Origin: Cherax quadricarinatus
Lineage: Eukaryota; Arthropoda; Malacostraca; Decapoda; Parastacidae
Direction of reading: 5' to 3'
Assembly (NCBI RefSeq): GCF_038502225.1
Contig: NC_091292.1
Coordinates: 102,146,128-102,210,127 of the forward strand
DNA length: 64,000 nucleotides
Part shown: piece after piece, positions 12,301 to 62,530 of the stretch
Layout of the letters: each line of letters starts with the position of its first letter
Position numbering within the stretch: the first letter of the stretch is position 1
Made by a program: the position numbers and the translations under genes
Notes under the pieces: generated by a model
Databases searched by the model: none
What the model was told of the DNA's origin: nothing
The model's input: only the letters and a program-made list of their open reading frames with translations

Positions 12301-15300
12301 AGGACCTACAGTACTCAGGAGGAAAAGGCACTCCCAGGACACAGTGTCTCATCAGTCATTGCTGCATCTTCAATAAAGGTAAGTGTCATTTATTCTTCAT
12401 TTAGTAGAGTAGTACATGCACAGTATATATTGTGCATGTACTACTCTACTATTGTGCATGTATCCTTCTCTTTGTGTGTAGGAAAATGTATATTTCATGT
12501 GGTAAAATTTTTTTTTTCATACTTTTGGGCGTCTTGCACGGATTAATTTGATTTCCATTATTTCTTATGGGGAAAATTCATTCGCATACCGATCATTTCG
12601 CATAACAATCAGCCCTCTTGCACGGATTAAAGTCGCTATGCGGGGGTCCACTGTATATGATAAATGAGTTATATTGCTTCACATTAATTTTTATTTTGTA
12701 ATAAATAATTGTAAGTTTGGAGGTGTTTTGGCAGGTTATGAAATGGATGTACGTACATTATTATACCATTGTTAGGTAAGACACACATGCAACAGTTAGG
12801 TATCTTTATTTTAAAACGTTTTGCCTACACAGTAGGCTTCTTCAGTCGAGTACAGAAAAGCTGATAGAAGCCCAAGAGACGTGAAGACGATGTAATCAGT
12901 CTTCACTTCTCTTGTGCTTCTATCAACTTTTCTGTACTCGACTGAAGAAGCCTACTGTGTAGGTGAAGCATTTCGAAATAAAGATACCTAACTGTTGCAT
13001 GTGTGTCTTACCTAACAACCTGTCGGTATTTTCTACCATTTTATTATTCACATTATTATACCATTGTTACTGTTCTAATATTTTAGTGTCTAATTTTCAC
13101 AGTAGTATTCACTAATGCAAAGAATATAGCTCGAATTCTTGTAGCAGTCACAAGCAGTTTTGTAAATTTAGTTTCTCATTTGAATTTGACATAAAAATTA
13201 ATAGCATTCTTGGATCATGTTTTCTTTAGGTATGAAACGAGCAGAGAGGAGGAGGAGGAAAGTTAAAGCAGCTTCTCTGAATGATTCTCACCACCACCAC
13301 CACCACCACCCACGATCTCGTGAAGTAGAATTAGCAACTCTTCGACAGTTGCCAATAAATAATAACTTTGTTACAGAAAATAATGTTCTCTATAACCTTC
13401 ACACTTTTCCAGGTAGGTGAAAAATAAAAACATGTTTTGCTTATTACAGTATTCTATATTAATATCTTACATACACAGCTTTTAGCTGCACAATGAATAA
13501 CAGTACATCTCAGTCTGATAAAAAGGCAACAGTATTGTACCCCTTGAATCTTCATAAAAAAGATAATTTGATAAATCCTTTTCTTCATCTGTGAGAATAA
13601 TTTTTTGCTGTCTTATTAAACATCCAGCTGTATATCTACAAAAAAAAAAGCTCAAGTATTTTTTCAAAATGTAATTTCAGGAGATGACCTGGATCTGCCC
13701 CATGTGTCACGGCATTGTATCAACCTCACCAAGTTTCTGGGTTGTGGAGCGTTTGGTGAAGTATTTGAAGGGACAGCCTGTGGACTGCCATGTTTACCTG
13801 AGGTCACAAAGGTGGCAATTAAGGTATGTGTATCCATTAATTCTTATTTTTCATGTATACATGAGTATACATTTTATATGATTGGCAAATATGAGTACAG
13901 CCTCTCCTCACTTAGCGACGTACTCTTTTACCGACGGCCCAGACTTACAACAGGCTCTCTGACCTGTATGCATACATAAATAATGTTTATTAGAGCTGAT
14001 TTCTGCTATTTTGTTTAATACAATATATAGTACACTACTGTATAAACATTTAAAAATATAGTACCAGAAATGTTATAAATGGTGCAAAGGTGACATTAAA
14101 ACACTATCAAAGATGGTTCACAAGCCCACTACCATTATAGCTCCTCATTTAGCGACAATTTTGTTTACCAACATGGTCTTAGGAATGGAACTTTGTCATT
14201 GAGTGAGGAGAGGCTGTATATTTTTTAGCCACTACGTATATGGAAACTGAAAAAATATATGCATTTTCAACATTTTAAGAATTTAATTTTGTATTACTCT
14301 GTAAACAATGAGTGCCTTTGATGCTTGTCAGACTCTCCGTAAAGGAGCAACAGAGACAGAAAAAGCTGAGTTCCTGAAGGAGGCTCAGTTGATGAGTCAC
14401 TTCCAGCATGAACATATCTTGCGTCTTCTGGCTGTATGTACAGACCATGATCCTTTCTTCCTTATCCTTGAACTGATGGAAGGTGGCGATCTTCTGTCCT
14501 ATCTTCGTACAAGTCGTGGAGTAAGTTTGAAGTTTATTATTATTATTATTTTATACATGAGTTTGAAATTTATAGAAAATGTTAAGTCATATTCATATTG
14601 CAGAGTCAAATGTTTAGTCACATTCATATTGGATGGCGCCTTAGTGTCTGAAGTTTGAGCTGTCTCCCACAGAAGTAGAGTGACTCAAAAAAGAAGAAAC
14701 ACTGTCACTATCACTCACTCCACCACTCTCCTGCCAGAGGCATATTGATATTACAGCTCATATTTCCCTCCAAACTGCAGACACAGTGTATGTAACAATG
14801 AGCATTATTGTATCCACCTTTTAAATCAATTCTATTCATTTTTTAGGTTGAGTGTAGCTTGACATTAGCAGACTTGGTGGCCATGTGTCTGGATGTGGCT
14901 AAAGGTTGTGTGTATTTGGAAGAAATGCACTATGTCCACCGTGACTTGGCTGCAAGGAATTGTCTTGTCTCAACAACTGACCCCGAATCTCGTATAGTGA
15001 AAATTGGTGATTTTGGGCTAGCCAGAGATATATACAAAAATGATTACTATAGAAAAGAGGTACTGTATATCTATAGATCATTTTATTTATAACTTAATGC
15101 CATATTTATAAGAGTAGGCTTGTGAAATTCACGAGTGAAAAAACTTTAAACTTATTAAAATACCCCTAAAATTAATGAAGCTTTTTATTTTTTATATAAT
15201 AAGTTATTGTCATCTGTACAGTACTGAAAAAACATACATTGTCTTTACTTTTGATGAGTTCTGTGAGTTTTTCTATTCCCAGAGCCCAGCCTTAGGCTAG

Positions 15301-21214: not shown

Positions 21215-21300
21215 AGTATAATGAGATCCTTTAATGACAACATTTCACCCACAAAGTGGGCTTTATCAAGCGTAGTGACATGAAAAAAACAGGCAAGGTA
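21215..21300 (-). ncRNA. Hammerhead-like motif in Penelope-type terminal repeat (degenerate)
   Basis: Minus strand reads TTGATAA, hairpin AGCCCAC-TTT-GTGGGT, then GAAATG. Stem I pairing is weak and the expected GAAACG is GAAATG, so activity is doubtful. It shares the U3-A8 type core with copies at 42174 and 62448. Confidence 0.5.
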
Positions 21301-21708
21301 TGTTGGAAAAAAGGCAAAAGATTTATTTAATTTGAAGGGAAATCAGAGTTAAGGTATGTTGAAGCTAATTCTTGGGTAGACTGGTGTTGGGTTGGACAAA
21401 TATATGGCTGAGAAGAGGCTAGATTAATGAAAGACCTGCCTAGCTTGAGCCAGAAGGCCTGTTGCAGTGTTCTTCCATATGATTAAGAAGTTTCCTGGTA
21501 AGTGGCTCAGCTCTGTTGTAGAAGCCATTGTTCTGGATGAAGTTGTTTAGTGATGAAGTTTATTAAAGTGACAATTACAGAATCCTGCATTTTGAAGTGT
21601 CATCTTTGATAATCAGTCATGCGTCATTGTAACTGATCAGGTGGTTGTGGAAGTTTCTATATGAAACTGGCATTAAAGTGCTCCATTCTGCTGGCATATT
21701 TGTGTTCA

Positions 21709-21746
21709 TTATTATTATAATCAAAAAGAAGCGCTAAGCCACAAGG
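21709..21746 (-). mobile_element. TAA-tail SINE-like mini insertion (38 bp)
   Basis: Plus strand TTATTATAATCAAAAAGAAG then CGCTAAGCCACAAGG. Flanked by the 12-bp duplication TATTTGTGTTCA (21697-21708, 21747-21758). Confidence 0.85.
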
Positions 21747-21946
21747 TATTTGTGTTCAGAAATGTGTGTATGAGAGTCCCTTGATGCTTCCTCCATATAT
21801 ATTTGGTCACAAATCATTGTAAAGGATTGTGTATATCTCTACTGTGGTTCTGACTGGGTCCCTTACTGATGATGTCCTTGACTGTAGTGGAGGTGGTAGT
21901 GTATATTGAAAATTGGCATTAGAGAGAATGCTGGGGATGTGTTTAA

Positions 21947-22155: not shown

Positions 22156-22194
22156 TTAATAGTAGTTTGGGAGGCCTGTTTACTGTACATTTTC

Positions 22195-25269: not shown

Positions 25270-25275
25270 TTTATT
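25270..25275 (-). terminator. Candidate poly(A) signal of the IR gene
   Basis: TTTATT on the plus strand is AATAAA on the minus strand, about 140 nt past the IR stop codon. Not confirmed by cDNA. Confidence 0.5.
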
Positions 25276-25415
25276 AAGTGAACAAATTAAATAAAAAAAA
25301 TAGCTCAGATCAGTAAGTTATGAAAGGTATTTAGTACAGTATGTATTCCTAGTTGTTAATATATAACCATTAATCTGCTAACTACAGTACACGTGCTTGT
25401 ATCCTTAAAGTGAAA

Positions 25416-25749
25416 TTATGTTTTGCAAAGTTCTACCAAAAACAGTAAAAGTGCAATAATGTTGCCTATAACAAGGATGTAGAAAGCCCCTGCCAGCTGG
25501 GCGAGGGTGATAGGCTGGGTACCTTCCAGGGCTGGCATTTTCTTAGTGTCTACTTCCTCCCGTCTCTTGGGGTCTTTCATAATCTGCGAGATCCACTTGC
25601 TGATGAGCCCAGCTTCTAGTAGCCGCCGGATCTGCTGGTTGAACTTGCTTCGGTACGGACACCCAGCATTGAAGGCCCAACCGATATCCGAGGGAAAGAA
25701 GTTGTTGGTGGCTATGTGTAGCTTCTGTTCTCCCGTCACAGAAGTGAAC
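25416..25749 (-). CDS. IR exon 10: S2 lobe end, last membrane segment, stop
   Basis: Acceptor GAATTATAACAG. LHIATNNFFPSDIGWAFNAG and PYRSKFNQQIRRLLEAGLIS are the S2 end (IR-type G-W-x-x-x-x-G...F-N). AFYILVIGNIIALLLFLVEL is the last span. Stop TAA at 25418-25416 leaves a two-residue cytoplasmic end. Confidence 0.97.
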
Positions 25750-28700
25750 CTGTTATAATTCACCATCACATAAAGCAGTTCAGTCTATACCTCACCACAG
25801 TAAAATTAATTTCATGAACTTAAACTTCACTATTTATACCCTATCATAGTGAAAAGTTTACCCTTTGTATCTCACTACTGTGTACTGTTATTAGCAATTT
25901 CATGTGGGAGTGCTAAATCCATAAGGGTCAAATAGCACTTAAGGAATGAGGGGCAATAAAATATGGGACATGAAAGGGGTGAAGAATACCAGACTTACTT
26001 TCAATTTTTAGTTAATATTTAAGTGAGGGAAGATTAACAAGGTGTCAAGTCAACCTCCAGTCTTTTTTCTTGACATGGGCAAATTTACTAGTGTGATTTA
26101 TTTCTCGACAGCTTCAAGGGTAGAGGTCAGATGGTCTATGGTCTGTCTCAACTTAAGTGGACTAATGCAGAAATTCAGTTCAAGGGCTAATACTACACAG
26201 TAGGTCCAACTTTATGGGACTGCCTATTTCGGAGAGAGAGAGAAGTTTGCTGGATATTGTAGGAATGGCTAAGAAGGTCCACAAGAACCTTTTGAAATGA
26301 CAGCATGAAGGAAATTTTTTTGGGGCAGACTAGAGAGAATTTCTGGGGAAAGATACAGAGAACCACACAGGTCTGGTGTGGAGGATGAGGCTGGAGAAAT
26401 GGACGTATGAGAAAATTTGTATGGGGCATCAGACTTGTGGGGACGTCTGTGTGGAAGAAGAATATGAATACAATACATTGTTTTATTTCTTTATGTAGTA
26501 CATGTAATAAAACATTGGTAGGCACAATAAGCCACTAAAATGCAATGCATTTCGAGAAAACTGATCACTAATTAGACCCAATGACTCAAAAAAATGAGTG
26601 TTTAATTTAAAGTATAAGTGTATCCTTTTTGTCAGTTATAAGTTGTATCCCCAGCTTTCTAAAATGTTAATCAATAATTTATCATTCTCCACTCACTATA
26701 TGTGCTCAGTTAACCAGAATTAGTATTCAGTAAAGAACTATCACTTTAATAATTGGTTCATGACTTGTTCTCATTAAGATTTCCCTTTAAATATTTTATA
26801 CAATTAATTAGTAAAGTAGTTAAGTGGTAAGTGTGTTTATCAGGTGGGAGGAAGTGGTGGGCTTATGGAGTGATAATGAAAGCCTCTTTAGTATAAGCGG
26901 CTCTACAGAGGAGTATTGAAAACTCTGCCCATCTACATTCCTACACCTGGTATGATAAGGGTAACTAATTTCTGGAATAAAACGCCCTTGACCAGCATCA
27001 AGATGATAATAGATCATTATTATAATATTCTTGGGGAAGCAGTAACCCAGTAGGGGTCATATCGCACATGAGGAATGGGAGGAAAGATAATTTAAATGGA
27101 ATAAACTGATTTTTAGGTAAGGATTTATACCACTAGCACCAGATAAAAGATGGCTAAGCCACTCATGGCAAAATGTTTCCTTAAAAAATACCCTCACGAG
27201 TGCAAGTGTGTCTTTTACCTACTTGTCAGTATCACCATACCAGTTCCACCACCAGTGCCAGTATATAAGCCATAGATATAAATGATGTAGGGTGCTGTAC
27301 CTGATAGCGATCCTGTCCTCCATGTAGAGCCTCCAGGCGATGAAAGCATACTTGGTGTCCCTGGCCCTGATGAGGCAATCATCCAAAGAAGGACATACCT
27401 TCAGCCCCTTGTACACCTTCTGGTAAAGTGGTACTTCTGATAACTTCAGCAGCTGGTAATCTGCAGCTTCATGTTGCTGCACCGAAGGTAAGATAAAATC
27501 GAGTATTTACTAGCTAGATGTCAGTTAGGTTTGAAGTTTATTGACCCTTCATAGCTGTATTTTACCAGTCCACAAATTTTTAAGGATAATTTAATCACTG
27601 AGGAGTTTGTGGAGACAAAGAATTTTATCCATGGAAGCAAAGAGGGGAATGTATGAGAGTATGGTTATACCAACGCTTTTATATGGGTGTGAAGCATGAA
27701 TGGTGGATGCTGCAAAATGGAGACGGCTGGAGGCAATGGAGACATGTCTGTGGGCAATGTGTGGTGTGAATATAATACAGAGAATCTATAGTTTGGAGAT
27801 TAGGAGGAGGTGTGGGATTACCAAAACTATATTATCCAGAGGGCTGAGGAGGGGTTATTGAGGTGGTCTGGACGTGTAGAGAGGGTGGAACGAAATAGAA
27901 TGCCTTGGAGTGTATAAATCTGTAGTGGAGAGAAGGCAGGGTAGGGGTCGGCCTAGGAAAAGTTGGAGGGAGGGGAAGGGTAGAGGTTTTGTGTGCAAGG
28001 AGCCTGGACTTCCAGTAAGCATGCGTGAGTGTATTAGATAGGAACAAATGAAGACAAATGGTTTTTAGGACTTGACATGTTGTTGGAGTGTGAGCAAGGT
28101 AACATTTATGAAGGGATTCAGGGAAACCAGCAGGCCGGACTCGTGTCCTGGAGATGGGAAGTACATTGTCTGCACTCTGAAGGAGGGGTGTTAATGTTGC
28201 AGTTTTATAAATGGCACTGGACAAGCACCTAAAGTCGGTTCCTGATCAGCCGGGCTGTGGCTCATACATTGGTTTGCGTGCAGCCAGCAGTAACAGCCTG
28301 GTTGATCAGGCTCTGATCCACCAGGAGGCCTGGTCACAGACCGGGCCGCGGGGGCGCTGACCCCCAGAACTCTCTCCAGGTAAACTCCAGGTATAAGTGC
28401 ACCTCTGGCAAGACAGTGATGGAGTGAATGATAGAAGTTTTTCTTTTTTGGGCCACCCTGCCTTGGTGGGAAACGGCCAATGTATTAATAAACAAAAATA
28501 ATTATTTAAAGTACTATACTCTTAGATGTTCACTGTTACACACATCTCAGTTTTTATATATGAAGCTGTAATAATGTTGGTTGAATTACCGACAATGTGT
28601 AAAGTAAAAGGACACAAGTGCAACTAATGTGGCATTTTTATTGTGGCAACGTTTCGCTCTCCAGGAGCTTTGTCAAGCAGTTACAAACAGTGGAGTCAGT

Positions 28701-37420: not shown

Positions 37421-40400
37421 CAGACCAGTGTAGGAGCCGTTGTCAAGTCTTAGACCCCACTGGCCGTCTGGAGGCTCCCTGATGATGTAGGTGAAGTTAA
37501 GCACTGAAGATATAACTCTGAGGATGCGTGCGTCCACACAATCCTTCAGGTGGACAACTCCTGACTTAACTTCATAAAAGGTGAAGGGAGCATAATTCAT
37601 AGTCACGACGGTGAAAGTATGGCCATGGAAATTCTGCAACAACGAGGAAATTATCAATAACCTAGCCACAACACAGGTTAATTTTTAGCCTATAACTTAA
37701 TCATAACACGAGCACAAAACCTACAGGGTGTGCATAAATTTTCTTTGCCCATACGCTTTTTCAAACTTTTCTTTAACATTGATAGCCTGATGCTTGATGT
37801 AGTTCACCGGTATTGTCCCGGCAGTTGAATATCATAAAAGGCAATACTCGAGGGTTATTATCCAGGCATCAGCATCCAAAAACCAATTTAAAAAAAGCAA
37901 GGTCCAAAACTGAGTTATTGTATGTTGTAAGGTTTGGCCTAATAGTTCCTATGCCATCAAGAGCCTCTTCCAGTCCATCTTCAAAGTGTATTTAAGATAT
38001 CAAACTGTGAGGGCAACACAGCTGAATTAGCTGTTTTAACTTTTAAAGATTTAAATAAGATATTATAAGGACCACAATGGAAATAAGTCACTGACTTTTT
38101 TGGGTTATCCTAGATAATTACACATTTGCTATGTATGATCCCCTCAAGGGAGGCTCGTTGACGCTGGCGAGGGGCTCTTGATCTAGGGAATTGGATCTGC
38201 GCTCCAGTTCCCTGAATTGAGCCTGAATACCTTCCATCCCCCCCCCCCCTCTGCATGCGCTGTATAATCCTACGGGTTTAGCACTCCCCCATGATTATAA
38301 TAATAATAATAATGCTATGTATGATAATTTATGTATATGTATACCTATACTCTAATAGACTTACATAATGTGTCGAGTATGAGACACTCTTGTAGCCTAG
38401 AGACTATCATCAACACGAGAACACTAAACTTAGTTTAGTGTTCTCGTGTTGATGATAGTATCTGTTAGGCAAGACACATATGCAACAGTTAGGTATCTTT
38501 ATTATGAAACGTTTCGCCTACACAGTAGGCTTCTTCAGTCGAGTACAGAAAAGATGATAGTATCTACATAACGAAGTCTCAATTCACATCTTTCATTCAT
38601 GTGGTTGGATTACAAGCAGCTTCACTTTAGTATTTTTGTGAACTGCAGAAATTATAAAAAAACTTTAATATTTATTATTTAAAATTACAAACAGCTTTGT
38701 GCAAAGTGTTTATTAAGCAGATTGGATTTTTAAAGTGCTGTACCATGATATGTATTTTTTTTCCAGTGCTTGTCTTGGCATCTGCGTTAATAATGCAGAG
38801 CATTTCGGGTAACTTTGGTTTTGTCCCCAGGATGCGACCCACACCATCGGTTAACACCCAGGTACCTACTTACTATTAAGTAAACAGGGACAGCAGATGT
38901 CTTAAGGAAACAGGCCCATGTTTCCACCCGTACCGGGGATCGAACCACATGCACTCAATGCGCGAGCTGAGTGCGCTACCAACCAAGCTACGGGACACTG
39001 TAGACTTATTTCATAGGTAGGTGAACTTAGGCAAAATAATAATCATTTTTCCCCCAGAAATAGGCCCCCCTCCCCCACAAATCATGCACCTTAGGCAGCA
39101 GAAGTGATAATAGCAATAGCAGCAGCAAAGGGGTGTGAGAGGAGGTGTCAGTATAAATCTGTATCAAACTCTAAGGCTTAGAGTGTGATACACAAAGTCT
39201 AAACCACATCCAATTTCGTGCCAAATTACAGGTCATTAGTCTGTTTAGACACCAGCAGAGGCGACGACGTAAGGCCATTAACCTCAGTTCAAACTTCATC
39301 CATAATCAGCTTTATGCCATAAGTAATAATCGGTAGCAAATTCTGACGAAAGGGGAAATTTCCTTTCAGTTAGGCTGAGAAAAGGAAAGGAGATACTGGG
39401 ATGTTATTCAGGCAAAGCTGCTCAAACTTCACTCCCACAGTAATGTGACCAAAGTCTGTCAGTTCAGTCAAATTTTACCCCATTGAGATAGAGGGTGAAA
39501 TAAACCGCACAGAGTGAAACTTGACGATTCTGCCCGGCTGGGATTATTAACTAGTCACAGTAACTAGTTAATAGTCCAGGTGGGACCGAAATGAGTTTTT
39601 CTCCATCTGCAGCTCGTGTGTCTGTGTCCCAATTAATATTTGCACTAATAACTCATTACAGTTGTGACCGTGTGAATGGCTCATTACTTTGCAATTTGTT
39701 CATGTTTGTAACCATGTATAGACGTGTAGATGATTCATTACATTTGTAACTTGATCACGATTGTGACTAGATCTACCTGGAGTTCATTACCTTTGTAACT
39801 AGTTCAGCTATCATAACTTTGGGGTCCAGTTCCTGGACCCATTATGTACCTCTGTAATCTTTTGACTACCGCCCACAGGATGGGTATGGGGTGCATAATA
39901 GATATTAAACTATCATATGCAGGTTGTTTTGTATTGTTCCAGCCATGGTATTGTGCCTTTTATTTTCTACAGGCAGAAACAAAAATTATATCACCTGTTG
40001 ATTTTATTTAGCGTACCTTAAATTTGTCAGTATAGAGTGGATTGTTCCAGACTTGTCCTACTCCAGGTACCCAGACGTCGACAAGAGCCATTTGGGGTCC
40101 TCCAGTAGAGCAGGGGAACGAGGAAACTAGGTGATAGACAAGGTCATTGTAGAACACCTGACCAGTGTTCCTTAGGACACTCTTCTCCCAGGGCAACCAC
40201 GATGCTATCACAGTGCCATACCCAGAACCTACACACAAATACTGGGTTTAGCATTTTCGTGAATAAGAATAAATAAGAATGGGTAACAATACTGCGTATA
40301 TTCTCTGCCGCAAGAAGAGGTTTTATACACAATTTATTTCATGTTAATTGCATTTAAATTAAAGAATCTGAAATATTACCAAGAACATAAGAATAGATTC

Positions 40401-43400
40401 AGTAGAGGAAGATTCCTTCAGCTTAAGTTCGATATTTGCAGCATCACTGATGCACGAAATATTGACAGTATTGACATTATATCCAGTTTCTTCTTTCAAT
40501 AAAAAGTAGGGGCGCCATTGGTACACTAAGAGGAAACACCGTAAGTGTCCGGGGCCCAAAACTGTTCAACAGCCTCCCATCAAGCATTAGGGGAATTGCC
40601 AATAAACCCCTGGCTGCCTTCAAGAGAGAGCTGGACAGATACCTAAAGTCAGTGCCGGATCAGCCGGGCTGTGGCTCGTACGTTGGACTGCGTGCGGCCA
40701 GCAGTAACAGCCTAGTTGATCAGGCCCTGATCCATCGGGAGGCCTGGTCATGGACCGGGCCGCGGGGGCGTTGATCCCCGGAATAACCTCCAGGTATGTC
40801 GAGTAGTTAATACAGAGGGAAATTACCAAGTGAGTGGCGTTACATACGTGACTCAGCAGAAAAGAGAAAGCTATAAGAGAGCTCGAAATTATTTATAACA
40901 TTCAGCGGTAAGCGTTAAAGCTGTAGGAGTTATACAACTCCTGGGGAATGGGAAGCAACTGAGTTGGATCCAGTGGGAGAAAAAGTGAGATTCCTTGGAT
41001 CAAGTGCCCTTTACCAGCATCAGAGAACCTCCCTTGAAATGTGTAAGCAGCAGTAAAATGAGGCATGTTTACAATTAGAGGAGTACTGAGGAAGTGGTGT
41101 CGAGCAAGCGTGCACAGGGACATTTTTCATTACATCGGCTGTCTTCCACCAAGGTAGGCTGAGCCCCCCCCCCCAGTAGTGACTTCCCCAAGAAGTACAG
41201 TACTTTCACTCTTTCAGAGTGGAAGCACTGTACTTCACACCTCCAGGTCTCAAGTCCGGCTAACCAATTCCTCTGAATTATTTCATGTTACCTTGCTCAC
41301 ACTCCAACAGCATATCAAGTCATAAAAACTAATTGTCCCCATTCCGACACGTTCACATACACCTGCTAGATGTTTGAACCCTTATCACTTAAAACTTTCA
41401 CACCCTCCTTCTAACCCTTCCATGGATGGCCTCTACCCGTTCTTTCTCCCAACCCGGATTAATACATCCTTTTCATCATCCTATCCTGTTCTATTCACTA
41501 GCACGTTAAGAGACAATACAATAAGTTTCAGGGGCCCAAGACTGTTCAACTGCCTCCCAGCATATATAAGGGGGATTACCAATAGACCCCTGGCTGTCTT
41601 CAAGCAGGCATTGGACAAGCACCTAAAGTCGATACCTGACCAGCCGGGCTGTGGTTCGTACGTTGGATTGCGTGCAGCCAGCAGTAAAAGCCTGGTTGAT
41701 CAGGCCCTAATCCACCATGAGACCTGGTCACAGACCGGGCCACGGGGGCGTTGACCCCCGGAACTCTCCAGGTAAACTGCAGGTATCCCCTCTAAGTGCT
41801 CAAACCATCTCAAAAGCTTCTCCGCTCTGAATCAGACACGTTGTAAACAGCAGTGCTGTAAGGAATACTGGTGTTAGATAAGTACCGAGGAAGTTTTGTT
41901 GGGTTAAAGTGCTGAGGGGAAGTGCTGATCCCGTGTAGACCAGCAACATCTTGTTTGCGTCCTGGAACCACTTGCTCCTCTGTATCGTCATCGTCACACG
42001 GCCCACATCCTTAACGTCAAGAGATAATACTCATATTACTACTAATAAAAGTACATAATAGTGGTGCAAGACTTGGATTCGAGTAAATTATGGTCTGAAT
42101 TCACGTTGGAGACAGTGTATTGATGATTTGATGAGAGTTAAGACACATGTGCAACATCTGGTTATCTTTATTGTAGACGTTTCGCCATCCAGTGGCTTTA
42201 TCAATACAGAGTCTAGGACATAATTAGAAGACAGTAAAACTATATACAAAAGATGAGGTAATCAGTCCCTCAGCCTTGGAGTTGGCGTGACGAGCACCGT
42301 GGCTGCAGAGATTCTTGAGCACAGGCAAGGAGGCTGGCGCTTATATAGGCATCAGTGGACAGGGACATGTAGCAAGATGGGAGGTGACTCCAATTCCTTC
42401 AATCAAAAATCCTTAAGAGGCACGTAATTTCCCCAGTCTTCTAATATGTTCGTAAGGTGATGTCCAGGATCTTTCCTTAATTCATGGTATAACTTAACAA
42501 ATCTTTGAGGACAGTAGTGTTGTAGTGATTATACCATGAATTAAGAAAAGATCCTAAACTTCACCTTACGAAACAGAGAAAGCCAATGCGTTAGTAATTA
42601 TGGACAAGGTAGATTATAGTGGAAAAATGAAGATGTTATTAGAAGACGAAGGAACTAACATGCCTCTTAAACTCAAGGATTGAGATCTTACCTGGAGGCG
42701 AGCGAGGATAACATAGGCGACGCAGAAGGAGCCGTGTGCGTGGTGATGGGTGGTAGTGAGCACAGTGTATGGAGGTGGAGGAGTGTGCAAGAAGGTGTTC
42801 ATCTCCCACAGTAAGGTAGCATCACCCAGGCTTGACACCACAGCTTCCACCAGCCCCAGATATGGTTCCTCCGGGGTATACAGCACCATCTGGGGAACAC
42901 AAATGGCTTACGTGTTGGGTTTCAAGCCCATCGACTACACGAGGGTCATCGTGGCTTCCTTATAAACATTTACATCACTGAGGAATAATTTATTACCTTG
43001 CATAAGGCTTAATGTAAACTCTAAGAGACACACCCCTCTCAGTATAAACATTTTATAGCATGCTCATAGGGAAGCGTTAAAATCCTAAGGGCCACAGCGC
43101 CTGGGATATTGGCAGGAAATCAGGTTTGATCCAGGATGCAGGAGGTCAGTATTAAATGGTATAGTGATAGCTACAAACTGTGGAAAAGGACACTCTTGTA
43201 CAGTTCAGAACATTTATTATTATTATAATCAAAAAGAAGCGCTAAGCAGAACATTTATTAAAGGAAACGTTTCGCCCGAGTGCCTTCATCAGTCCATTAG
43301 AGCTGAAGAAGTCACTGAGCGAAACGTTTCTTTTAATAAATGTCCTGAACTGAACTCCAGTGTTCGTTTCCACACAAAGGGGAGGGTTAAGTTTAATTCG

Positions 43401-47017: not shown

Positions 47018-47194
47018 GAGTAACTTCGATAATTCAGTCTTTCATCATAACTTGTGTTTTAATTCTGATCATTAGTTTGTAGTCTTGTCTGAACCTCTAA
47101 CTTATCCACAGGAACCATCAGTTCATCTGGTAAAGTTTCTGGTCAGCGAAACATCTTCATAAATCGCATACATTTCGGTCACTCCACGAGACAA

Positions 47195-47570
47195 GAAAGG
47201 TATCCCCCCTGTTGCATAACCCCAGCCTCCGAAAGGTATCCCCTTGTTGCATAATCCCAACCCCAGAAAGGTATCCCCTTGTTGCATGATCCCAACCCCA
47301 GAAAGGTATCCCTTTGTTGCATAATCCCAACCCCAGAAAGGTATCTCTTTGTTGCATAATCCCAACCCCCGAAAGGTATCCCCTTGTTGCATAACCCCAG
47401 CCTCCGAAAGGTATCCCCTTGTTGCATAATCCCAACCCCAGAAAGGTATCCCCTTGTTGCATAATCCCAACCCCAGAAAGGTATCCATTTGTTGCATAAT
47501 CCCAACCCCAGAAAGGTATCCCCTTGTTGCATAATCCCAACCCCAGAAAGGTATCCCCTTGTAGCACAAC
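47195..47570. repeat. Second 35-bp minisatellite
   Basis: About 10.7 units of GTTGCATAATCCCAACCCCA plus GAAAGGTATCCCCTT, unrelated in sequence to the neighbouring array but of equal unit length. All three minus frames stay open (repeating GDTFLGLGLCNK, IPFWGWDYATRG, YLSGVGIMQQ) because 35 bp shifts frame each unit. Not treated as a gene. Confidence 0.93.
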
Positions 47571-49437: not shown

Positions 49438-49954
49438 GATTGAGACACTTATGCAGCATATGGGAATCTTTATTCAGGAAACGTTTCGCCACACAGTGGC
49501 TTCATCAGTCCAATACAAAGAGGAAGGCGTAAGGAGAGGAGGAGAATGAGGTAATCAGTCCCTCAACCTGGGGTCGATGTGTTCAGTCCATCAATCTTGT
49601 AGAATGTACAGCATAGGGCCGTAGACGTGGCTTATATACTGTAGTGAGGTGACGTGAAGCAGGTGGAGGCGGGGTCATGGTGGTACCATCCACTAGTCGA
49701 AGTATGTACCACCATGACCCCGCCTCCACCTGCTTCACGTCACCTCACTACAGTATATAAGCCACGTCTACGGCCCTATGCTGTACATTCTACAAGATTG
49801 ATGGACTGAACACATCGACCCCAGGTTGAGGGACTGATTACCTCATTCTCCTCCTCTCCTTACGTCTTCCTCTTTGTATTGGACTGATGAAGCCACTCTG
49901 TGGCGAAACGTTTCCTGAATAAAGATTCCCATATGCTGCATAAGTGTCTCAATC
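49438..49954. mobile_element. Penelope terminal repeats as a 249-bp palindrome, with two hammerhead-like motifs
   Basis: Arms 49438-49686 and 49706-49954 are equal in length and nearly identical, separated by 19 bp. Each arm runs from GATTGAGACACTTATGCAGC inward through GGGAATCTTTATTCAGG, the hammerhead-like core, TCAGTCCCTCAACC, and a TATA-like GTATATAAGCC, to CATGGTGGTAC. Cores: plus 49884-49909 CTGATGA, hairpin AGCCAC-TCT-GTGGC, GAAACG; minus copy differs by one loop base. Confidence 0.85.
49884..49909 (+). ncRNA. Hammerhead-like ribozyme core, canonical form
   Basis: CTGATGA, then A, GCCAC with loop and GTGGC, then GAAACG. Stem I next to the core: GGA (49881-49883) can pair with TCC following GAAACGTT. 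Stem III would be the self-complementary ACGT, which fits a two-molecule (dimeric) hammerhead. A mirrored copy is in the left arm (about 49479-49504, minus). Confidence 0.65.
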
Positions 49955-55036: not shown

Positions 55037-57790
55037 TTATTTGTAAGTAGGGTTAGGAGCAGGATCATGCAAGGAGTAGAAAAGGTTGTGTTGGTTTGTG
55101 GGTCTGCGAATGTCTTCGTCAAGGAGAGAGGTCCAGTAGTCATGTCGTGTCTCAAGTTTGTCTATCTGTCTGTCACTGAGCCTCTTCCAGTACAGATTCA
55201 GCGCAGGGACGTCTAACTGGGCATGGAGAGACTCGCTTGTGGCGAAGTCCTCCCATCTGACATCAAGCACCCAGCGCAGCGCCTTGTTCTGGACACGCTG
55301 CAGTTTAAGTAAGTTTGTTTTTGCTGCAAGAGAGAGGGCTAGAGGAGAGTAAGTTATCAGAGGACGTATTAGGGATTTGTAGAGGTGTAGTTTGGTGCGT
55401 TGAGAGGCATGTTTCAGCTTGTAGAGGCCCGCAAGGGCCTTACTAGCTATTGCATGCCTTGAGTGAATGTGTCCGTGTAAACGAAGAAGGTAGTCAAGAT
55501 TAACGCCAAGGACAGTGACAGATTGTGTGATAGGGAAGTAAGTGCGGGTGTCAGCTGTTCTGAGTTCGACAGGTAATGGAGGATCACGTTTCCTGTAGTT
55601 AAAATACGTAATGCTGGATTTTGCTGCATTGGTTTTGATCCTCCATTTTTGTTCCCAGATGGCTATCCTGTCAACCTCATTTTGTGTTTTGTGTGTGAGT
55701 GTATCTATATTGGCATGAGTGATAAGTTGTGTAATGTCGTCTGCATAGGCTAGTGTGATGGAGTTGTGGTATATAGGTGTTGGAATATCGTTAGTGTATA
55801 AAATGTAGAGGGTAGGGGAAAGGACAGATCCCTGGGGTACTCCAGCATTTAGTGTGAAGTAGTCAGAGTAACAGCCTTGGAATTTGATTCTCATGGTACG
55901 GCCGTCTAGGAAGTTGCAGAGGAGTTTACGAGTATTGAGAGGCAGGTTGAAGTTAGTGCAGAGTTTGTACTTGAGCCCCTCGTGCCACACAGTGTCAAAA
56001 GCTTTTTCAACGTCTTTTGCAACCAGGGCTGTCCTGTTTCTTTGTTTTGTGTTTATGTGGATGTAGTTGAGAATGATGTTAATGGCATCCTGTGTGGATC
56101 TGTGTGTTCTGAAGCCAAACTGGCCATCTGAAAGTAGAGAATTATGTTCCAGGTATCTGCGAAGGCGATGATTAATGAGTTTTTCAAAGAGTTTTCCTAA
56201 AGTTTCGAGGAGGCTGATAGGGCGATAGTTTCTAGGGTCAGAGTGGTCTTTATTGGGTTTAGGAAGGAGGATAGCAGTAGCAGCTTTGAAGAGGGAAGGG
56301 AAGTATCCAGAGGCAAGGGAGGCATTGAGGAGGTTTGTGTAGGCAGTAATGATAGAGTCAGGAAGGTGTTTCAGGATAATATGGTTTAGGCCAGAGGCAC
56401 CAGGAGCCTTTGGAGGAAGGTGTCTGAGGAGAGTTTTAATGTCTGTGTTGGTGAAAGGAGTGTCGAGTTCTTGGGAGGAGGTAAGAGTGTCTAGATGTAT
56501 GTGGCTGTCTGGTGTTGTTTCTTGTGTGTGTGCAGTGTTCCAGTGTTCTATGTTCTGAATGTGTTGAATAACGTTAGGGTGAGGTGGGTGAGCGTGGAAG
56601 ATGTTCTCCCAGATGTGTTTGAAGATGTTGGTAGCAGCCTGTGGGTCTGAGATGTGTGTGTTGTTGTGGGTGATGTGTTTGAATTTGTTGGTGGGAGTAG
56701 TGCCTCTGATTTTTTTGATAAAGTTCCAGAAGGCTTTAGTGTTTTTAACACGCTGCCTGTCCGCTTGTTGTATTAGTCGTGACCAGTGATTGTTGTGGTC
56801 TTGGTCTAGGCTGTGTAAAATGTTGTTTCTAAGGTAAGTGAGATCTAATCGGACTTGATTAAATCTATGTGTGTTGTAGAGGAAGCGGTTGTGGTAGCAG
56901 ATAATTAGTCTTCTTGTTCTGAGTGACGGTTTGAAGGAATAACGAGTGGTGTGAGTTTTCTTTGGTATTGCGATGTTGGCTGCTTGTGTAATGGTGTCCT
57001 GGATGAGATCAAGTTGAGTATCGATGTCAGAGATAGGTTTGTTGTTGTAGTCATAGGTGAGGTTAATATTGTCTATGTGTTGTTTGAAAGCATCCCAGTC
57101 AGCGTTCTTGTAGGAGAATGAAGGTGTGGTTGAAATGAGGATAGGGTTGGAGGAGATGTGTAAGATGACTGGGATGTGATCAGAGCCTGTAATAGGGCCA
57201 GGTGAGATGTAATATTGAAAAAGAGAGCTGGCTCGGTTTGCCAGAATGATGTCTGGTTTGCCTTGGCCCGTGTGGTTGAAGAAGGTATTGAAGTCTGGGC
57301 CAAGATGAATTAGGTGTTTATGGTTTGTGAAGTTGAGTAATTGGTGACCAAGTTGGTTGTTACTGGTGTGATGAAAGGCAGTGTGTTTGGCATTCATGTC
57401 AGCTAGTAGGTAAGTTGGTGTGTTGGTGTAGTTGAAGACTAAGGAGAGGTCGTGTATGTTGAGAGTAGTGTTTGGGCGAGCATAGGTGGTGAAAAAGATA
57501 AAGGGACCAAGGTGGGTGTGTATTCTGACCGCAAGACAGTGTTGGTGAATAAAAGGGATTGGGAGAAATTCATGTTTTATGTTGGAATTGACAAGGATGG
57601 CAACCCCATCGTGGGGATCATAGGGGGACTGTAGTGCAGTATAACCATAATGGCGGATACATTGAGGGGCTTTGAGGCAGGTACTGTTTAGCAAAACAAT
57701 ATCTGGCCTCTCTGCTTCAAGGAGCTCGGCCAGTAGGTGTCTAATTGTAAAGTAAGAACGTACGTTGAACTGAATCGCCTTAAACGTGAT
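55037..57790 (-). CDS. Jockey-type LINE ORF2: endonuclease and reverse transcriptase, intact
   Basis: Open for 917 codons from 57790 with no stop. Endonuclease: IQFNVRSYFTIRHLLAELLE, YLLADMNAKH, KPDIILANRAS, ITGSDHIPVIL (SDH). The usual QET glutamate position reads LLNSTC. RT: NYRPISLLETLGKLFEKLIN, ALVAKDVEKAFDTVW (motif A), [20 protein letters not shown] (motif B), TLAYADDITQLI (YADD), then VTVLGVNLDYLLRLHGHI. No in-frame ATG is near the start: the frame opens after TAA at 57793-57791 and overlaps the ORF1 stop by 11 nt, so coupled or shifted translation is likely. Makes cDNA by target-primed reverse transcription. Seems recently active. Confidence 0.93.
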   Translation of the reverse strand: MTFKAIQFNVRSYFTIRHLLAELLEAERPDIVLLNSTCLKAPQCIRHYGYTALQSPYDPHDGVAILVNSNIKHEFLPIPFIHQHCLAVRIHTHLGPFIFFTTYARPNTTLNIHDLSLVFNYTNTPTYLLADMNAKHTAFHHTSNNQLGHQLLNFTNHKHLIHLGPDFNTFFNHTGQGKPDIILANRASSLFQYYISPGPITGSDHIPVILHISSNPILISTTPSFSYKNADWDAFKQHIDNINLTYDYNNKPISDIDTQLDLIQDTITQAANIAIPKKTHTTRYSFKPSLRTRRLIICYHNRFLYNTHRFNQVRLDLTYLRNNILHSLDQDHNNHWSRLIQQADRQRVKNTKAFWNFIKKIRGTTPTNKFKHITHNNTHISDPQAATNIFKHIWENIFHAHPPHPNVIQHIQNIEHWNTAHTQETTPDSHIHLDTLTSSQELDTPFTNTDIKTLLRHLPPKAPGASGLNHIILKHLPDSIITAYTNLLNASLASGYFPSLFKAATAILLPKPNKDHSDPRNYRPISLLETLGKLFEKLINHRLRRYLEHNSLLSDGQFGFRTHRSTQDAINIILNYIHINTKQRNRTALVAKDVEKAFDTVWHEGLKYKLCTNFNLPLNTRKLLCNFLDGRTMRIKFQGCYSDYFTLNAGVPQGSVLSPTLYILYTNDIPTPIYHNSITLAYADDITQLITHANIDTLTHKTQNEVDRIAIWEQKWRIKTNAAKSSITYFNYRKRDPPLPVELRTADTRTYFPITQSVTVLGVNLDYLLRLHGHIHSRHAIASKALAGLYKLKHASQRTKLHLYKSLIRPLITYSPLALSLAAKTNLLKLQRVQNKALRWVLDVRWEDFATSESLHAQLDVPALNLYWKRLSDRQIDKLETRHDYWTSLLDEDIRRPTNQHNLFYSLHDPAPNPTYK

Positions 57791-59387
57791 TTAATGGTTT
57801 CGTCTTAGCAAAGTTAATGTCGGGGGAGGAGTTTGGATTAAAGCCCGTGATAGTGGTGCCATCAGTGGATGTGTGTTTGTAGGTGCTACGGACCCGTTTC
57901 CTGGAGGGGGAGGAAGAGATGGATCTGTTTTTATGTTCTTTGGTCTGTCCGTTAGAAGTTGGGGTAGGTTTAGGTTTGAGTGGATTTTGTCTGGAGGAGG
58001 TGGAGTTGGACCTGGATGAGGTTTTGGTTGTGGTGGAGTGGGCGAAGGTGGATGCAGAGGAAGTGGAAGTTTTGGTGAGCTGTGAGGAAGTGGAAGCTTT
58101 GGAAGGGGATGAAGTGGGTAAGGAAGTGGGGGGAGGGGTGGTCGTAGCAGTAGCAGTAGGGGTGTTGGTGGGAGGTGTAGAAGTAGTGAAGAGAGGTAGT
58201 GGAGGAGGAGAGCTGGTGGGAGTAGGAAGTGGGGGGGTGGGAGAGAGGAAGGAGGGAGAGGTTGTAGGAGGCTTGGAAGAGAAGCAGGAAGGAGGGATAA
58301 TTAAAGAGGGAAGATTGTTAGCAGACAAGATTAGGTTAAGGACATGTGAGTAGTCTGATTGGTAAGCTTGTGAGATTACCATCGCAGAGTGGGCAGCAGT
58401 GGCAAGTTGACAGTTAGTTTTGTAGTCTAGTGTGGGTGTAGAAGGAGAAGTGCTTGTAGTCTGTGTGTTGGTGTTTGATGTGTGTAGAGTAGAAGAGGTA
58501 GACCAAGTGCGTGGGGAGGCCCAGGCATTGGGGGTAGGGGAGGGAGGTGTGGAAGGGGAGGGAGGTAAGGAAGGGGAGGGAGGAGCAGGGAAGGGGTTGG
58601 GGAGGGAGGGAGGTTGGTTTGCTCTGAGGGAGGAGAGAATGTGCTTTCTAGAAGGGCAGGAATTTGCAACTGCAGTGTGTGACCCGCCGCAGTTAGAACA
58701 TTTAAGGGGCAGGTTGCAAGTATTCCAGAAGTGGCCAGTTGCTGAACATCTGGAGCAGACTTGTGTAGATGTGCATGTGTTTTTGTCGTGGCCGAATTTG
58801 TAGCATTTAAGACATTGTGTGATTGGGTGGAAGTTCGGAGTGAAGAGAGCGTTTGGAGGAATGCGGATGGTCTTGGCAAAGATTCCTTGACTGAAGAGTG
58901 TAGAGGCGTCAGCAGGAGTAGAACAGCGTATTTTGAGAATGGTAGAGTTTTCTGGTCTGTAAATATCGTCAACAGAGACTTTGTTCTTAGTACTGATATC
59001 TTTTATTAAGTCTTCTTTGTCTGTGTCATAGGCTGTCAGGAGAGAGTAGTCTACGTGTTTAGCAATGACTGTGCTTTTGGCACGGTGCTCAGGAGTCCAA
59101 ATAATGGTGAAGCCTGCGTTGAGAAGTTTTTGTCTGGTATCGCTTGAGGTGTACGCTTCGTAGGAATGTTTGTCAAGAAGGAGTTTGAAGCCTGAGTTGG
59201 TTTTGAAGACTTTAAGTTGAGGTGCACCAGTGATCTGATATAATAAATTTTCCGGACAGATAGTGGCATCAGGATTAGAAAATTTGAGGTTTAGCGAGAA
59301 GGAATTGGATTTAGTAGAAGCAGAAACAAGTGTGGGAGGTTGGGGGAGAGTGGAAGGGGGGTGGGAGGTGGAAGGCAACGAAGGCAT
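57780..59387 (-). CDS. Jockey-type LINE ORF1 (Gag-like RNA-binding protein)
   Basis: 535 codons, ATG at 59387-59385, stop TAA at 57782-57780. Three Cys/His knuckles near residues 205-265: CLKCYKFGHDKNTC, CSRCSATGHFWNTC, CSNCGGSHTAVANSC. N-terminal part (LNAGFTIIWTPEHRAKSTVI) is RRM/PRE-like. The C-terminal third is Ser/Thr/Pro-rich, ending in basic RSISSSPSRKRVRSTYKHT. Likely forms the ribonucleoprotein with LINE RNA. The strong T/S/P bias produces long antisense open frames, which are shadows. Confidence 0.93.
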   Translation of the reverse strand: MPSLPSTSHPPSTLPQPPTLVSASTKSNSFSLNLKFSNPDATICPENLLYQITGAPQLKVFKTNSGFKLLLDKHSYEAYTSSDTRQKLLNAGFTIIWTPEHRAKSTVIAKHVDYSLLTAYDTDKEDLIKDISTKNKVSVDDIYRPENSTILKIRCSTPADASTLFSQGIFAKTIRIPPNALFTPNFHPITQCLKCYKFGHDKNTCTSTQVCSRCSATGHFWNTCNLPLKCSNCGGSHTAVANSCPSRKHILSSLRANQPPSLPNPFPAPPSPSLPPSPSTPPSPTPNAWASPRTWSTSSTLHTSNTNTQTTSTSPSTPTLDYKTNCQLATAAHSAMVISQAYQSDYSHVLNLILSANNLPSLIIPPSCFSSKPPTTSPSFLSPTPPLPTPTSSPPPLPLFTTSTPPTNTPTATATTTPPPTSLPTSSPSKASTSSQLTKTSTSSASTFAHSTTTKTSSRSNSTSSRQNPLKPKPTPTSNGQTKEHKNRSISSSPSRKRVRSTYKHTSTDGTTITGFNPNSSPDINFAKTKPLNHV

Positions 59388-59680
59388 CGTCTAATTACGA
59401 AAAGATGTAATTGGAGGTGACAATCGGCCAAAAAGTGAGAGTACTCAGGAGGAGCAGGACGGCTATATATAGGCAGGAAGAGGTGGAGGTAGTAGTAGTG
59501 GTAGTAGTAGTAGTAGTAGTAGTACAAGAATTGTATATAATACCGACAGGATGAAATGACACATGCACAACACCCGGGCATCCCCACCGTAGACGTTTCG
59601 CCATCCAGCCAGCCACTGGATGGCGAAACGTCCACAACAAAGACAACCAGACGCCGCACATGTTAGTCTCTCCCGTTGTT
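59388..59680 (-). promoter_or_regulatory. Probable 5' UTR/promoter region of the intact LINE
   Basis: Between ORF1 start and the next repeat: a (TAC/TAG)n trinucleotide run (59493-59524) and a TATATATAGGC sequence. The left end of the element is not defined; a Penelope terminal-repeat palindrome starts at about 59565. Confidence 0.45.
59565..59660. mobile_element. Penelope-type terminal repeat, short inverted pair
   Basis: GTAGACGTTTCGCCATCCAG and CTGGATGGCGAAACGTCCAC face each other around CCAGCCAGC. Both arms keep GGATGGCGAAACG but lack the CTGANGA half. Confidence 0.7.
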
Positions 59681-60359: not shown

Positions 60360-60865
60360 AGTATTTATTATAAGTTATTATAATCACCAGAATGAACTCA
60401 GTATGACTGCCATATCCACGAGCACTAAAGCCGTACGGGTTATATATAGCCCTTGGAATGAGGGTAGGGTAATCAGGCTTAACCAGAGAAAGGGGAGGGT
60501 AGTTCCAATTCATTGGATGAAGAGCAACTTCCCTCTGCAAGGGAAGGCGACCCACATCAACACATATTTCAAGATAAAAAGAGATGTATTTAATAACGAC
60601 GTACCCAAAGTATCTAAAACCAAAATCATGGTGTATAGCATCAATGTGACGCGTTTCCAATATTTGGGTAACTTTGTTGCCTCCTGTTCCACCTGTATGC
60701 GACTGAAGAAACCTGTTATTCAGGCGAAACTGTTCGGCAAGAAAAATACCCAAATGCGGCCAGCAGTAATAGCCTGGTTGATCAAACCCTGATCCACCAC
60801 GAGGCATGGTGACGGACCGGGCCGCGGGGGCGTTGACCCCCGAAACCACATCCAGGTATACTACA
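60360..60865. repeat. Mixed repeat remnants and CR1/L2-like tail
   Basis: 60360-60540 resembles a worn TAA-tail element (TTATTATAAGTTATTATAAT, GTAATCAGGCTTAACC). 60645-60745 resembles a Penelope terminal repeat (CGACTGAAGAAACCTGTTAT, CAGGCGAAACTGTTCGGC). 60750-60860 is a CR1/L2-like tail (CGGGCCGCGGGGGCGTTGAC). Confidence 0.65.
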
Positions 60866-61042: not shown

Positions 61043-61660
61043 TCATGGTAAATAATTAACATGCATTCCAAGACGTGACTGAGCGTTGACAAGCGGTGTT
61101 ATCACAAAGGTTTCTTGTTCTTGTCCAGACCAGAGCTTTGGTGAGATGGGTAAGGAAGAAGGATGGGTAAGGATAGAAATTTTGGAAAAGGGTGGGAGGG
61201 GGGAGTGAGGTAGGATATAAAAGGTAAGTGGAACAAATGGATAAGTGGACAAATATAGACTGGAAAGAGGCAGGTTTTTTTCGGTGTTCACTCTCTGTAA
61301 TGTGCTTGTGTAGTATAACAGGAGAGACTATGTGATGGCAGGGTTTACTGTTTCCAGGAGGATTCTTGCTAAGACTTCGGAGATGGTGAAGCTGCCGTTG
61401 TTTTGTTTAATTGTATTCGAAACAGCGATCAGTGCTGATTCAAGGCACTTGCGTGTGCGGAAATTAGTTTCTTTGATCACTAATTGGGCGTCTCTGAATT
61501 TCATGAGATGATTGGTGGAATTTCGGTGTTGTACACAGGCGTTGTTTAAGTTGTCGTTCCTACATGCGTAAATGTGTTCATTGAGGCGGGTGTCGAGGTT
61601 TCTTGCTGTTTCACCTACGTAGATCTTGTCACAGCCTCCACAGGACCACGAACCAGTCAA
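61043..61660 (-). mobile_element. Penelope-like element fragment, left inverted copy (GIY-YIG endonuclease)
   Basis: Minus strand codes SCGGCDKIYVGETARNLDTR, LNEHIYACRNDNLNNACVQH, RTRKCLESALIAVSNTIKQN and ends LLETVNPAIT with a stop. C-x-x-C followed by K-x-Y-V-G-x-T-x-R-x-L-x-x-R is the GIY-YIG endonuclease end of Penelope-like retroelements. It continues outward into a 3' UTR matching 62178-62240. Confidence 0.92.
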
Positions 61661-61865
61661 TGCAGGAGTTTACACTATACCCTGTGGAGGCTGTGACAAG
61701 ATCTACGTCACAGCCTCCACAGGGTATAGTGTAAACTCCTATGCAGTCAATGCAGGAGTTTACACTATACCCTGTGGAGGCTGTGACAAGATCTAAGTCA
61801 CAGCCTCCACAGGGTATAGTGTAAACTCCTATGCAGTCAATGCAGGAGTTTACACTATACCCTGT
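61640..61865. repeat. Tandem array of inverted repeats made from the GIY-YIG coding region
   Basis: CACAGCCTCCACAGGGTATA and its complement TATACCCTGTGGAGGCTGTG alternate two to three times with GTAAACTCCTATGCAGTCAA spacers (unit about 92 bp). Each arm codes VYTIPCGGCD. It lies exactly at the centre between the two inverted GIY-YIG copies. Confidence 0.9.
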
Positions 61866-62177
61866 GGAGGCTGTGACAAGATCTACGTAGGTGAAACAGC
61901 AAGAAACCTCGACACCCGCCTCAATGAACACATTTACGCATGTAGGAACGACAACTTAAACAACGCCTGTGTACAACACCGAAATTCCACCAATCATCTC
62001 ATGAAATTCAGAGACGCCCAATTAGTGATCAAAGAAACTAATTTCCGCACACGCAAGTGCCTTGAATCAGCACTGATCGCTGTTTCGAATACAATTAAAC
62101 AAAACAACGGCAGCTTCACCATCTCCGAAGTCTTAGCAAGAATCCTCCTGAAAACAGTAAACCCTGCCATCACATAG
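61842..62177 (+). CDS. Penelope-like element GIY-YIG endonuclease, right copy (partial ORF)
   Basis: Open from the central repeats to TAG at 62175-62177 (111 codons): GVYTIPCGGCDKIYVGETAR, LDTRLNEHIY, KFRDAQLVIKETNFRTRKCL, ending LLKTVNPAIT. Differs from the left copy by E to K near the end. The RT domain is missing, so this is a 5'-truncated pair. The nuclease in complete elements makes the target nick used for insertion. Confidence 0.92.
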   Translation, partial: AGVYTIPCGGCDKIYVGETARNLDTRLNEHIYACRNDNLNNACVQHRNSTNHLMKFRDAQLVIKETNFRTRKCLESALIAVSNTIKQNNGSFTISEVLARILLKTVNPAIT

Positions 62178-62530
62178 TCTCTCCTGTTATACTACACAAG
62201 CACATTACAGAGAGTGAACACCGAAAAAAACCTGCCTCTTTCCAGTCTATATTTGTCCAACCTATTTTTATGTTACCCAAGTAATAGCTTTTATATCCTT
62301 TTACTCATGTACGAATTATTTGCTCTTCCATATTGTATTATTTTTTTTACTACTACTACCACTAGTGAACATCGAAATGGTACCTCACTAGTATTACACC
62401 TCACTCAAGAGCCTTTATATACCCTCTGTGTCCATGTATTGTTTGTAATGGCTTGATAAAGCTCCTGGAGAGCGAAACGTTGCCACAATAAATGTCACAT
62501 TAGTTGCACTTGTGTCCTTTTACTTTACAT
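62178..62530 (+). mobile_element. Penelope-like element 3' UTR and terminal repeat with hammerhead-like motif
   Basis: Follows the GIY-YIG stop. Around 62448-62485: ATGGC, TTGATAA, hairpin AGCTCC-TGGA-GAGC, GAAACGTTGCCAC, then AATAAATGTCACATTAGTTG. TGGC before the core pairs with GCCA after GAAACGTT over four bases. This copy directly links the hammerhead-like repeats to a Penelope coding region. Confidence 0.75.
62448..62485 (+). ncRNA. Hammerhead-like ribozyme variant (TTGATAA core)
   Basis: Core positions 3 and 8 are U and A instead of C and G, which keeps the 3-8 base pair. Other core bases (U4 G5 A6, A9, G12 A13 A14) and a stem-II hairpin are intact, and stem I has four pairs. Activity not tested. 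Confidence 0.55.

Follow-up and report, generated by a model that had tools for sequence, protein, structure and literature searches.

U3-A8 variants of a minimal type I hammerhead motif in Penelope-like retroelements of a decapod genome

The window, by which we mean the whole stretch of 64,000 nucleotides of Cherax quadricarinatus DNA analyzed here, carries the C-terminal GIY-YIG endonuclease open reading frame (ORF) of a Penelope-like element (PLE), and the core of a hammerhead copy, named here after position 62448, lies 279 nt beyond the end of this ORF (Table 1). The string GCGAAACG occurs 11 times in the window, compared with 0.15 occurrences expected from shuffles. A structural descriptor demanding stem I (≥2 bp), nTGAnnA, stem II (≥3 bp), GAAA and a minimal stem III, with bases 3 and 8 left free, matched seven sites, three with C3/G8 and four with U3/A8; random 64-kb sequences with the dinucleotide frequencies of the window gave a mean of 0.04 matches (4 matches in 100 sequences). 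The original prediction, made from the letters of the window alone, had named U3/A8 copies at 62448 (plus strand) and at 42174, 28652 and 21240 (minus strand), and the four U3/A8 matches of the descriptor are exactly these, with position 3 at 62453 (+), 42204 (−), 28676 (−) and 21269 (−). A profile built from 15 copies found 18 copies in the window, with E-values up to 1e-7.

Table 1. Hammerhead copies and associated features of the window (position 1 is its first letter).
Feature	Position	Strand	Details
C-terminal GIY-YIG endonuclease ORF of PLE	61797..62177	+	Pfam PF01541, E 4.2e-06
Disrupted GIY-YIG endonuclease remnant preceding the 21240 copy	21485..21811	−	tblastn 33% identity, E 1.3e-07
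U3/A8 minimal hammerhead, subfamily E (62448 copy)	62449..62485	+	Descriptor and parse
62448 copy, stem I	62449-62452 / 62482-62485	+	TGGC / GCCA
62448 copy, core	62453-62459	+	TTGATAA
62448 copy, extra A	62460	+	
62448 copy, stem II	62461-62464 / 62470-62473	+	GCTC / GAGC
62448 copy, GAAA	62474-62477	+	
62448 copy, C-G	62478-62479	+	
62448 copy, U16.1	62480	+	
62448 copy, U17	62481	+	Predicted cleavage 3' of this residue
Subfamily E 3' pseudo-LTR (pLTR) segment after hammerhead	62486..62529	+	Conserved
U3/A8 hammerhead, subfamily D	42172..42208	−	Stem I TGTA/TACA; stem II GCCA-CTGGA-TGGC; H17 = C
U3/A8 hammerhead, subfamily E	28644..28680	−	Position 7 = C; stem I down to 2 bp
U3/A8 hammerhead, diverged subfamily F	21235..21273	−	Stem II GCCCAC-TTT-GTGGGT
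C3/G8 hammerhead, subfamily A	49878..49918	+	Head-to-head with 49474-49514
C3/G8 hammerhead, subfamily A	49474..49514	−	Descriptor and parse
C3/G8 hammerhead, subfamily B	38502..38544	−	Stem I 2 bp
C3/G8 copy, subfamily B, decayed	12809..12851	−	G12 changed
C3/G8 copy, subfamily B	12936..12978	+	Head-to-head with 12809-12851; 3' core decayed
C3/G8 copy, weak stems	43297..43334	+	Head-to-head with 43260-43298
C3/G8 copy	43260..43298	−	Stem I GGA/TCC; stem II partly broken
C3/G8 copy	60697..60739	+	Stem III decayed
Degenerate A3/U8 copy, further core damage	27144..27183	+	Parse

A type I hammerhead is a three-stem junction around the conserved core CUGANGA / GAAA / UH, and hammerhead cores are usually taken as fixed at C3/G8. 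The RNA of the 62448 copy comprises stem I (TGGC/GCCA), the core UUGAUAA, an additional A, stem II (GCUC-CUGGA-GAGC), GAAA, a C-G pair, U16.1 and U17. It retains U4, G5, A6, A9, G12, A13, A14, A15.1, U16.1 and H17, and departs from the conserved core in the U-A pair at 3-8, the extra A after A9, and a loopless 2-bp stem III consisting only of A15.1-U16.1 and C15.2-G16.2. The extra A, between A9 and stem II, is found in each of the 13 core-bearing window copies; our genome patterns required it, so the genome counts given below are silent on its fixity. The plus-strand hammerhead of chrysanthemum chlorotic mottle viroid bears an extra A at the same position, A10 between A9 and 10.1, which is described in the sections of PMC3705267 cited here as lowering trans-cleavage moderately, although that is a viroid ribozyme and the motif here belongs to a retroelement. 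A stem III of only 2 bp and the additional A each predict slow cleavage. Among the 78 C-G and U-A copies parsed from the fetched genomic loci, T, A and C all occur at position 7, and position 17 carries T or C except in three copies with A. Rfam returned no match at its gathering cut-off, and hammerheads were absent among the 51 matches obtained at E-values up to 10.

In the window, positions 3 and 8 form a Watson-Crick pair in all 13 copies that hold both (eight C-G, four U-A and one A-U), the other five of the 18 profile copies being excluded from this tally because their 5' half is missing. The single A-U copy (A3/U8) has an otherwise damaged core. Column shuffles of the 13 copies gave P values of 0.0001 for 3-8, 0.003 for I.1, 0.0005 for II.4 and a marginal 0.04 for II.3, all of them too small because the copies are kin; pairs I.2, I.3 and I.4 of stem I did not rise above the shuffles in these copies (P = 0.11, 0.07 and 0.66). 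Stem III (two pairs) and pairs II.1 and II.2 are nearly invariant. Within the same 13 copies, UGA is intact in 12, GAAA in 10 and ACGU in 9.

We extended the analysis to the genome (3,952,656,770 bp) using the pattern nTGANnAAGC, a gap of 4-16 nt, and GCGAAACG; the last element alone occurs 285,581 times genome-wide, versus 13,901 for its reversed pattern. The full pattern yielded 115,079 C3/G8, 61,826 U3/A8, 3,508 C3/A8 and 2,338 U3/G8 copies, with 0, 1, 0 and 0 in the respective reversed-pattern controls; these repeat counts may be lower bounds, and they are not independent events, the copies being related. The patterns required UGA and GAAA, so the counts are uninformative on the conservation of these residues. 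Independent variation of positions 3 and 8 was looked for in this collection, and 176,905 of the 182,751 copies with C or U at position 3 and G or A at position 8 (96.8%, the only copies included in this total) stay C-G or U-A, corresponding to an odds ratio of 867. The proposal that U3/A8 is a double change that keeps the 3-8 pair agrees with these counts, in which the class with both changes is about ten times as numerous as the two singly changed classes combined.

The relation between single and double changes was also followed in a fixed background, the subfamily D sequence GCCA-CTGGA-TGGC with T at position 7. Here the combinations at positions 3 and 8 were CA in 632 copies, UG in 173 and CG in 48, and UA was estimated at ~21,600 copies (15,900-27,900 if rows are independent) from 35 of 100 listed rows, all drawn from the initial 8 Mb of a single contig, with tandem copies among them. 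The same procedure estimated CA at 877 against a true 632 (25 of 100 rows) and UG at 187 against 173 (8 of 100 rows), indicating that an error of ~40% is possible. The 48 CG copies compare with 3.9-6.9 expected from independent single changes, a ~7- to 12-fold excess that fits both compensation and sequence exchange with C3/G8 elements. When a C3/A8 subfamily was sought in 20 fetched C3/A8 loci, these proved to be scattered over several backgrounds, two of them, L105 and L106, being alike. At G000:C1:100258957-100259144, a core-like motif, TTGACGAAGCTCTACACAGAGCGAAACG, recurs with 64- and 32-bp spacing in a different tandem array.

Comparison of six subfamily representatives revealed covariation beyond the 3-8 pair. 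Three of them carry C-G at 3-8, with stem I sequences GGA/TCC (A), CGA/TCG (B) and GGA/TCC (C), and three carry U-A, with TGTA/TACA (D), TGGC/GCCA (E) and TGAC/GTCA (F); their stem II sequences also differ. At the pairs that the search did not demand (three of stem I, and II.4), all 24 cells are Watson-Crick despite the letter changes, compared with a mean of 13.0 in column shuffles, which reached 24 in 0 of 20,000 trials, although simple shuffles of this kind are inflated by the relatedness of the subfamilies. With 3-8, three stem I pairs and four stem II pairs taken together (eight pairs), Watson-Crick pairing holds in 48 of 48 cells (shuffle mean 32.3; 48 reached in 0/20,000), a result that overstates the agreement because clean copies were chosen, 3-8 was set by class, II.1-2 were demanded by the pattern and II.3 by the filter. 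Pairings slid along both stems gave 9/42, 10/42 and 9/30.

According to the original prediction, stem I covaries between the named copies, from TGGC/GCCA at 62448 to TGTA/TACA at 42174. This holds as covariation between subfamilies, but a 4-bp stem I is present in only two of the four copies: that of the 28652 copy has 2 bp, and that of the 21240 copy consists only of a C-G and a G-U. With G-U counted, stem I reaches at least four pairs in 31 of 39 U-A copies and in 14 of 39 C-G copies, a contrast of degree, since the C-G representatives of B and C also have a fourth pair. The U-A forms may be offset by this longer stem I. The prediction had also called the changes independent and compensatory. 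Stem I and II.4 do covary between subfamilies, but a single origin of the 3-8 change was not rejected. Specifically, the backbone of the tail tree did not resolve; a version with 96 rows (68 columns) placed six changes between the C-G and U-A classes, and a cleaner one of 28 rows placed three, with a single U3/A8 clade not rejected (p-AU 0.34). It is possible, though in our view doubtful, that C-G and U-A replaced one another more than once at the 3-8 pair of an active retroelement ribozyme, owing to the importance of dimer self-cleavage for the element's spread; if so, the genome would amount to a natural experiment in compensatory evolution.

The element carrying these motifs was characterized through its endonuclease. 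A tblastn search of the window and the fetched loci (3 kb each) returned 18 endonuclease stretches of more than 60 aligned residues, which merge by genome coordinates into 14 distinct places (the overlapping sets being L090/L091/L125 and L130/L131). At 11 of the 14, a same-strand hammerhead lies no more than 300 nt downstream; the other three are two places in L117, with none in reach, and the arm of a foldback in the window. The distance from the end of GIY-YIG to the hammerhead is 279-291 nt in six distinct E copies, 201, 201 and 216 nt in F, 233 nt in an F-like C3/A8 copy and 145 nt in one C copy; the 21240 copy lies 216 nt past its broken GIY-YIG remnant. This C-terminal GIY-YIG layout is that of canonical Penelope-like elements, as outlined in PMC11167929. 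The E and F endonucleases share only ~53% identity. An endonuclease search of viral contigs returned no relative and a PDB sequence search nothing useful; pattern matches in viral contigs and public genome contigs were rejected as DNA lacking the motif structure or the tail. In the window, positions 61246-62259 hold 399-nt arms, 100% complementary, flanking three copies of a 90-nt unit in the endonuclease ORF, and these inverted arms are either a foldback of very recent origin or an artefact of assembly.

Copies often lie close together, and in several arrangements. As in PLEs, copies occur in tandem with pLTRs, and insertions end in a tail. Of 72 neighbouring pairs in the fetched loci (no more than 600 bp apart), 30 are head-to-head, 24 tandem and 18 tail-to-tail. 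Tandem units measure 421 bp in D (~99.8% alike) and 378 bp in A (identical), with a 401-bp spacing in B. Read by eye, the TGTCGGTAT...ATACC tail stands on one arm only. The TGTCGGTA tail of sister copies is not intact in the segment that follows the 62448 hammerhead (62486..62529). The protein of a lizard PLE extends both target strands, according to the experiments cited from PMC11167929, and such extension could create head-to-head joins. At window positions 35868-35966, two pLTR tails meet head-to-head, their join AACGTT being the hammerhead stem III and cleavage region, and at 59589-59635 two pLTR copies, both without positions 3 and 8, overlap head-to-head within hammerhead stem II. Four subfamily E loci with different flanks (L060, L151, L152 and L153) are palindromes with arms of 91-94 bp and at most 10% mismatch, all fused at the same AAGCTT, in hammerhead stem I.

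Taken together, we consider it probable that these motifs are minimal type I hammerheads in the pLTRs of decapod PLEs, in which entire subfamilies have U3-A8 where others have C3-G8, amounting to ~62,000 pattern copies. With the 3-8 pair kept, the core can still fold. The sequence ACGU is present in 77 of the 78 parsed copies of the fetched set, although search and parse had both required it; as it is self-complementary, two copies could pair into a 4-bp stem III, a dimer mechanism that has been described for newt and viroid hammerheads in the passages cited from PMC6155905. In tandem or dimeric transcripts, the ACGU of two copies would thus form a shared stem III, probably with assistance from the protein that the element encodes. 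The RNA would then be cut 3' of H17, and unit-length RNA would be released for insertion. The 5' ends of 123 distinct copies do not cluster where cleavage is predicted, with 0 at +1 to +4 and 6 at +5 to +9, in a sample whose ends are fuzzy by a few bases and which is biased against cleavage-site ends because the loci were mostly chosen for an intact hammerhead. For the lizard PLE, the sections of PMC11167929 used here report that hammerhead cleavage needed protein, that hammerhead mutants insert normally in vitro, and that no reads started or ended at the cleavage site.

One ancestor with both changes, or with its activity lost, could have founded the U3/A8 copies by a neutral founder effect, its descendants being copied through recognition of the RNA by the protein, with no ribozyme function. 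The unrejected single U3/A8 clade (p-AU 0.34), the absence of a cleavage-site peak among the 5' ends of 123 copies and the in vitro insertion by a PLE protein without hammerhead cleavage, as given in the cited part of PMC11167929, are all in keeping with this. We nevertheless find it unlikely, since pairing in stem I would be expected to break down without selection in subfamilies whose stem I letters differ, yet it persists in 18 of 18 cells for pairs 1-3 of the six chosen representatives; this pairing is also long-lasting, given that the E and F endonucleases are only ~53% identical. Alternatively, the hairpin could serve as an RNA signal for the PLE protein, or for translation or packaging, retaining an ancestral hammerhead shape with no role in cleavage. 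The lizard PLE, whose open reading frame begins at stem II and whose cleavage required the protein (both from the cited portion of PMC11167929), lends this reading some appeal, but it leaves the covariation of stem I and 3-8 around the hairpin unexplained, and UGA and GAAA are intact in most window copies (12 and 10 of 13, respectively). We regard it as quite improbable.

A further reading, in which the four copies named in the window are decayed C3/G8 elements that share two transitions by chance, is refuted by the genome counts and has next to no probability. Decayed copies are indeed numerous in the genome, including the 3,508 C3/A8 and 2,338 U3/G8 copies, but the 61,826 doubly changed copies belong to several subfamilies. 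U3/A8 is a successful form, and the view of the original prediction that it is not decay is borne out, as these copies fall into at least three subfamilies that differ in stem I, stem II and position 7.

Hammerheads with a natural U3/A8 pair were reportedly described by Perreault et al. in 2011. The part of that report cited here (PMC3088659) documents the same natural covariation from C3-G8 to U3-A8 in several hammerheads, and activity in vitro for ribozymes with the covarying letters; it concerns several examples, whereas here tens of thousands occur in one retroelement group, beside C3/G8 relatives. Such exchange at 3-8 is not generally free: in a cave cricket hammerhead repeat, only 4 of 198 sequences have an altered position 3 and only 2 an altered position 8, as stated in the relevant section of PMC2837043. 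Knowledge of hammerheads in PLEs goes back to 2014 (Cervera and De la Pena, as cited in PMC6155905, PMC7229834 and PMC11167929). As those citing papers portray them, the minimal type I hammerheads of PLEs share with ours the pLTR position, the lack of a real stem III and of characteristic tertiary loop contacts, and the tandem copies; ours differ in that three of six subfamilies are U3/A8 and in the extra A after A9. Another similar system, in the cited parts of PMC11167929, is Poseidon PAc of Anolis carolinensis, which likewise combines a PLE hammerhead with a C-terminal GIY-YIG ORF. Its 3-8 pair matters, C3G/G8C giving partial rescue, but its natural core is C3/G8 and it cleaved only with protein added.

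Metazoan retrozymes, as summarized in the cited portion of PMC7229834, also consist of tandem units (~170-400 nt; 378-421 bp here) with type I hammerheads, but those hammerheads are canonical, with tertiary loop contacts, and ours are minimal. Unlike retrozymes, many copies here bear the TGTCGGTAT tail of endonuclease-linked copies. An identity as retrozymes was rejected: despite the near unit length, stem III is minimal and a canonical loop-loop hammerhead is lacking. In a repeat survey of decapods, Penelope elements average 2.3% in Astacidea, and the words hammerhead and ribozyme are absent from its main text (PMC10454600). In the literature searched, the 2014 paper not included, we found no match for minimal PLE hammerheads that combine U3/A8 with an additional A and number tens of thousands of copies alongside C3/G8 sisters. 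Each of the parts is already known; their combination and scale in one genome are notable.

Standard searching, here with Rfam, overlooks these hammerheads, which suggests that those of animal PLEs are undercounted where a search demands CUGANGA. The co-occurrence of ~115,000 C-G and 62,000 U-A pattern copies in related elements allows one to ask directly whether cleavage is selected in PLEs, given that insertion in vitro proceeds without it.

The window contains other features in addition to the hammerhead copies. An ORF at 17013-17870 encodes a product with 58% identity to a Halocaridina rubra (shrimp) protein. Arrays of a 35-bp repeat occupy 45476-47011 (43.9 copies) and 47194-47566 (10.6 copies). 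On the minus strand, adjoining ORFs of 917 and 536 aa at 55037-59390 appear by eye to be LINE-like, encoding an endonuclease/RT and a zinc-knuckle protein.
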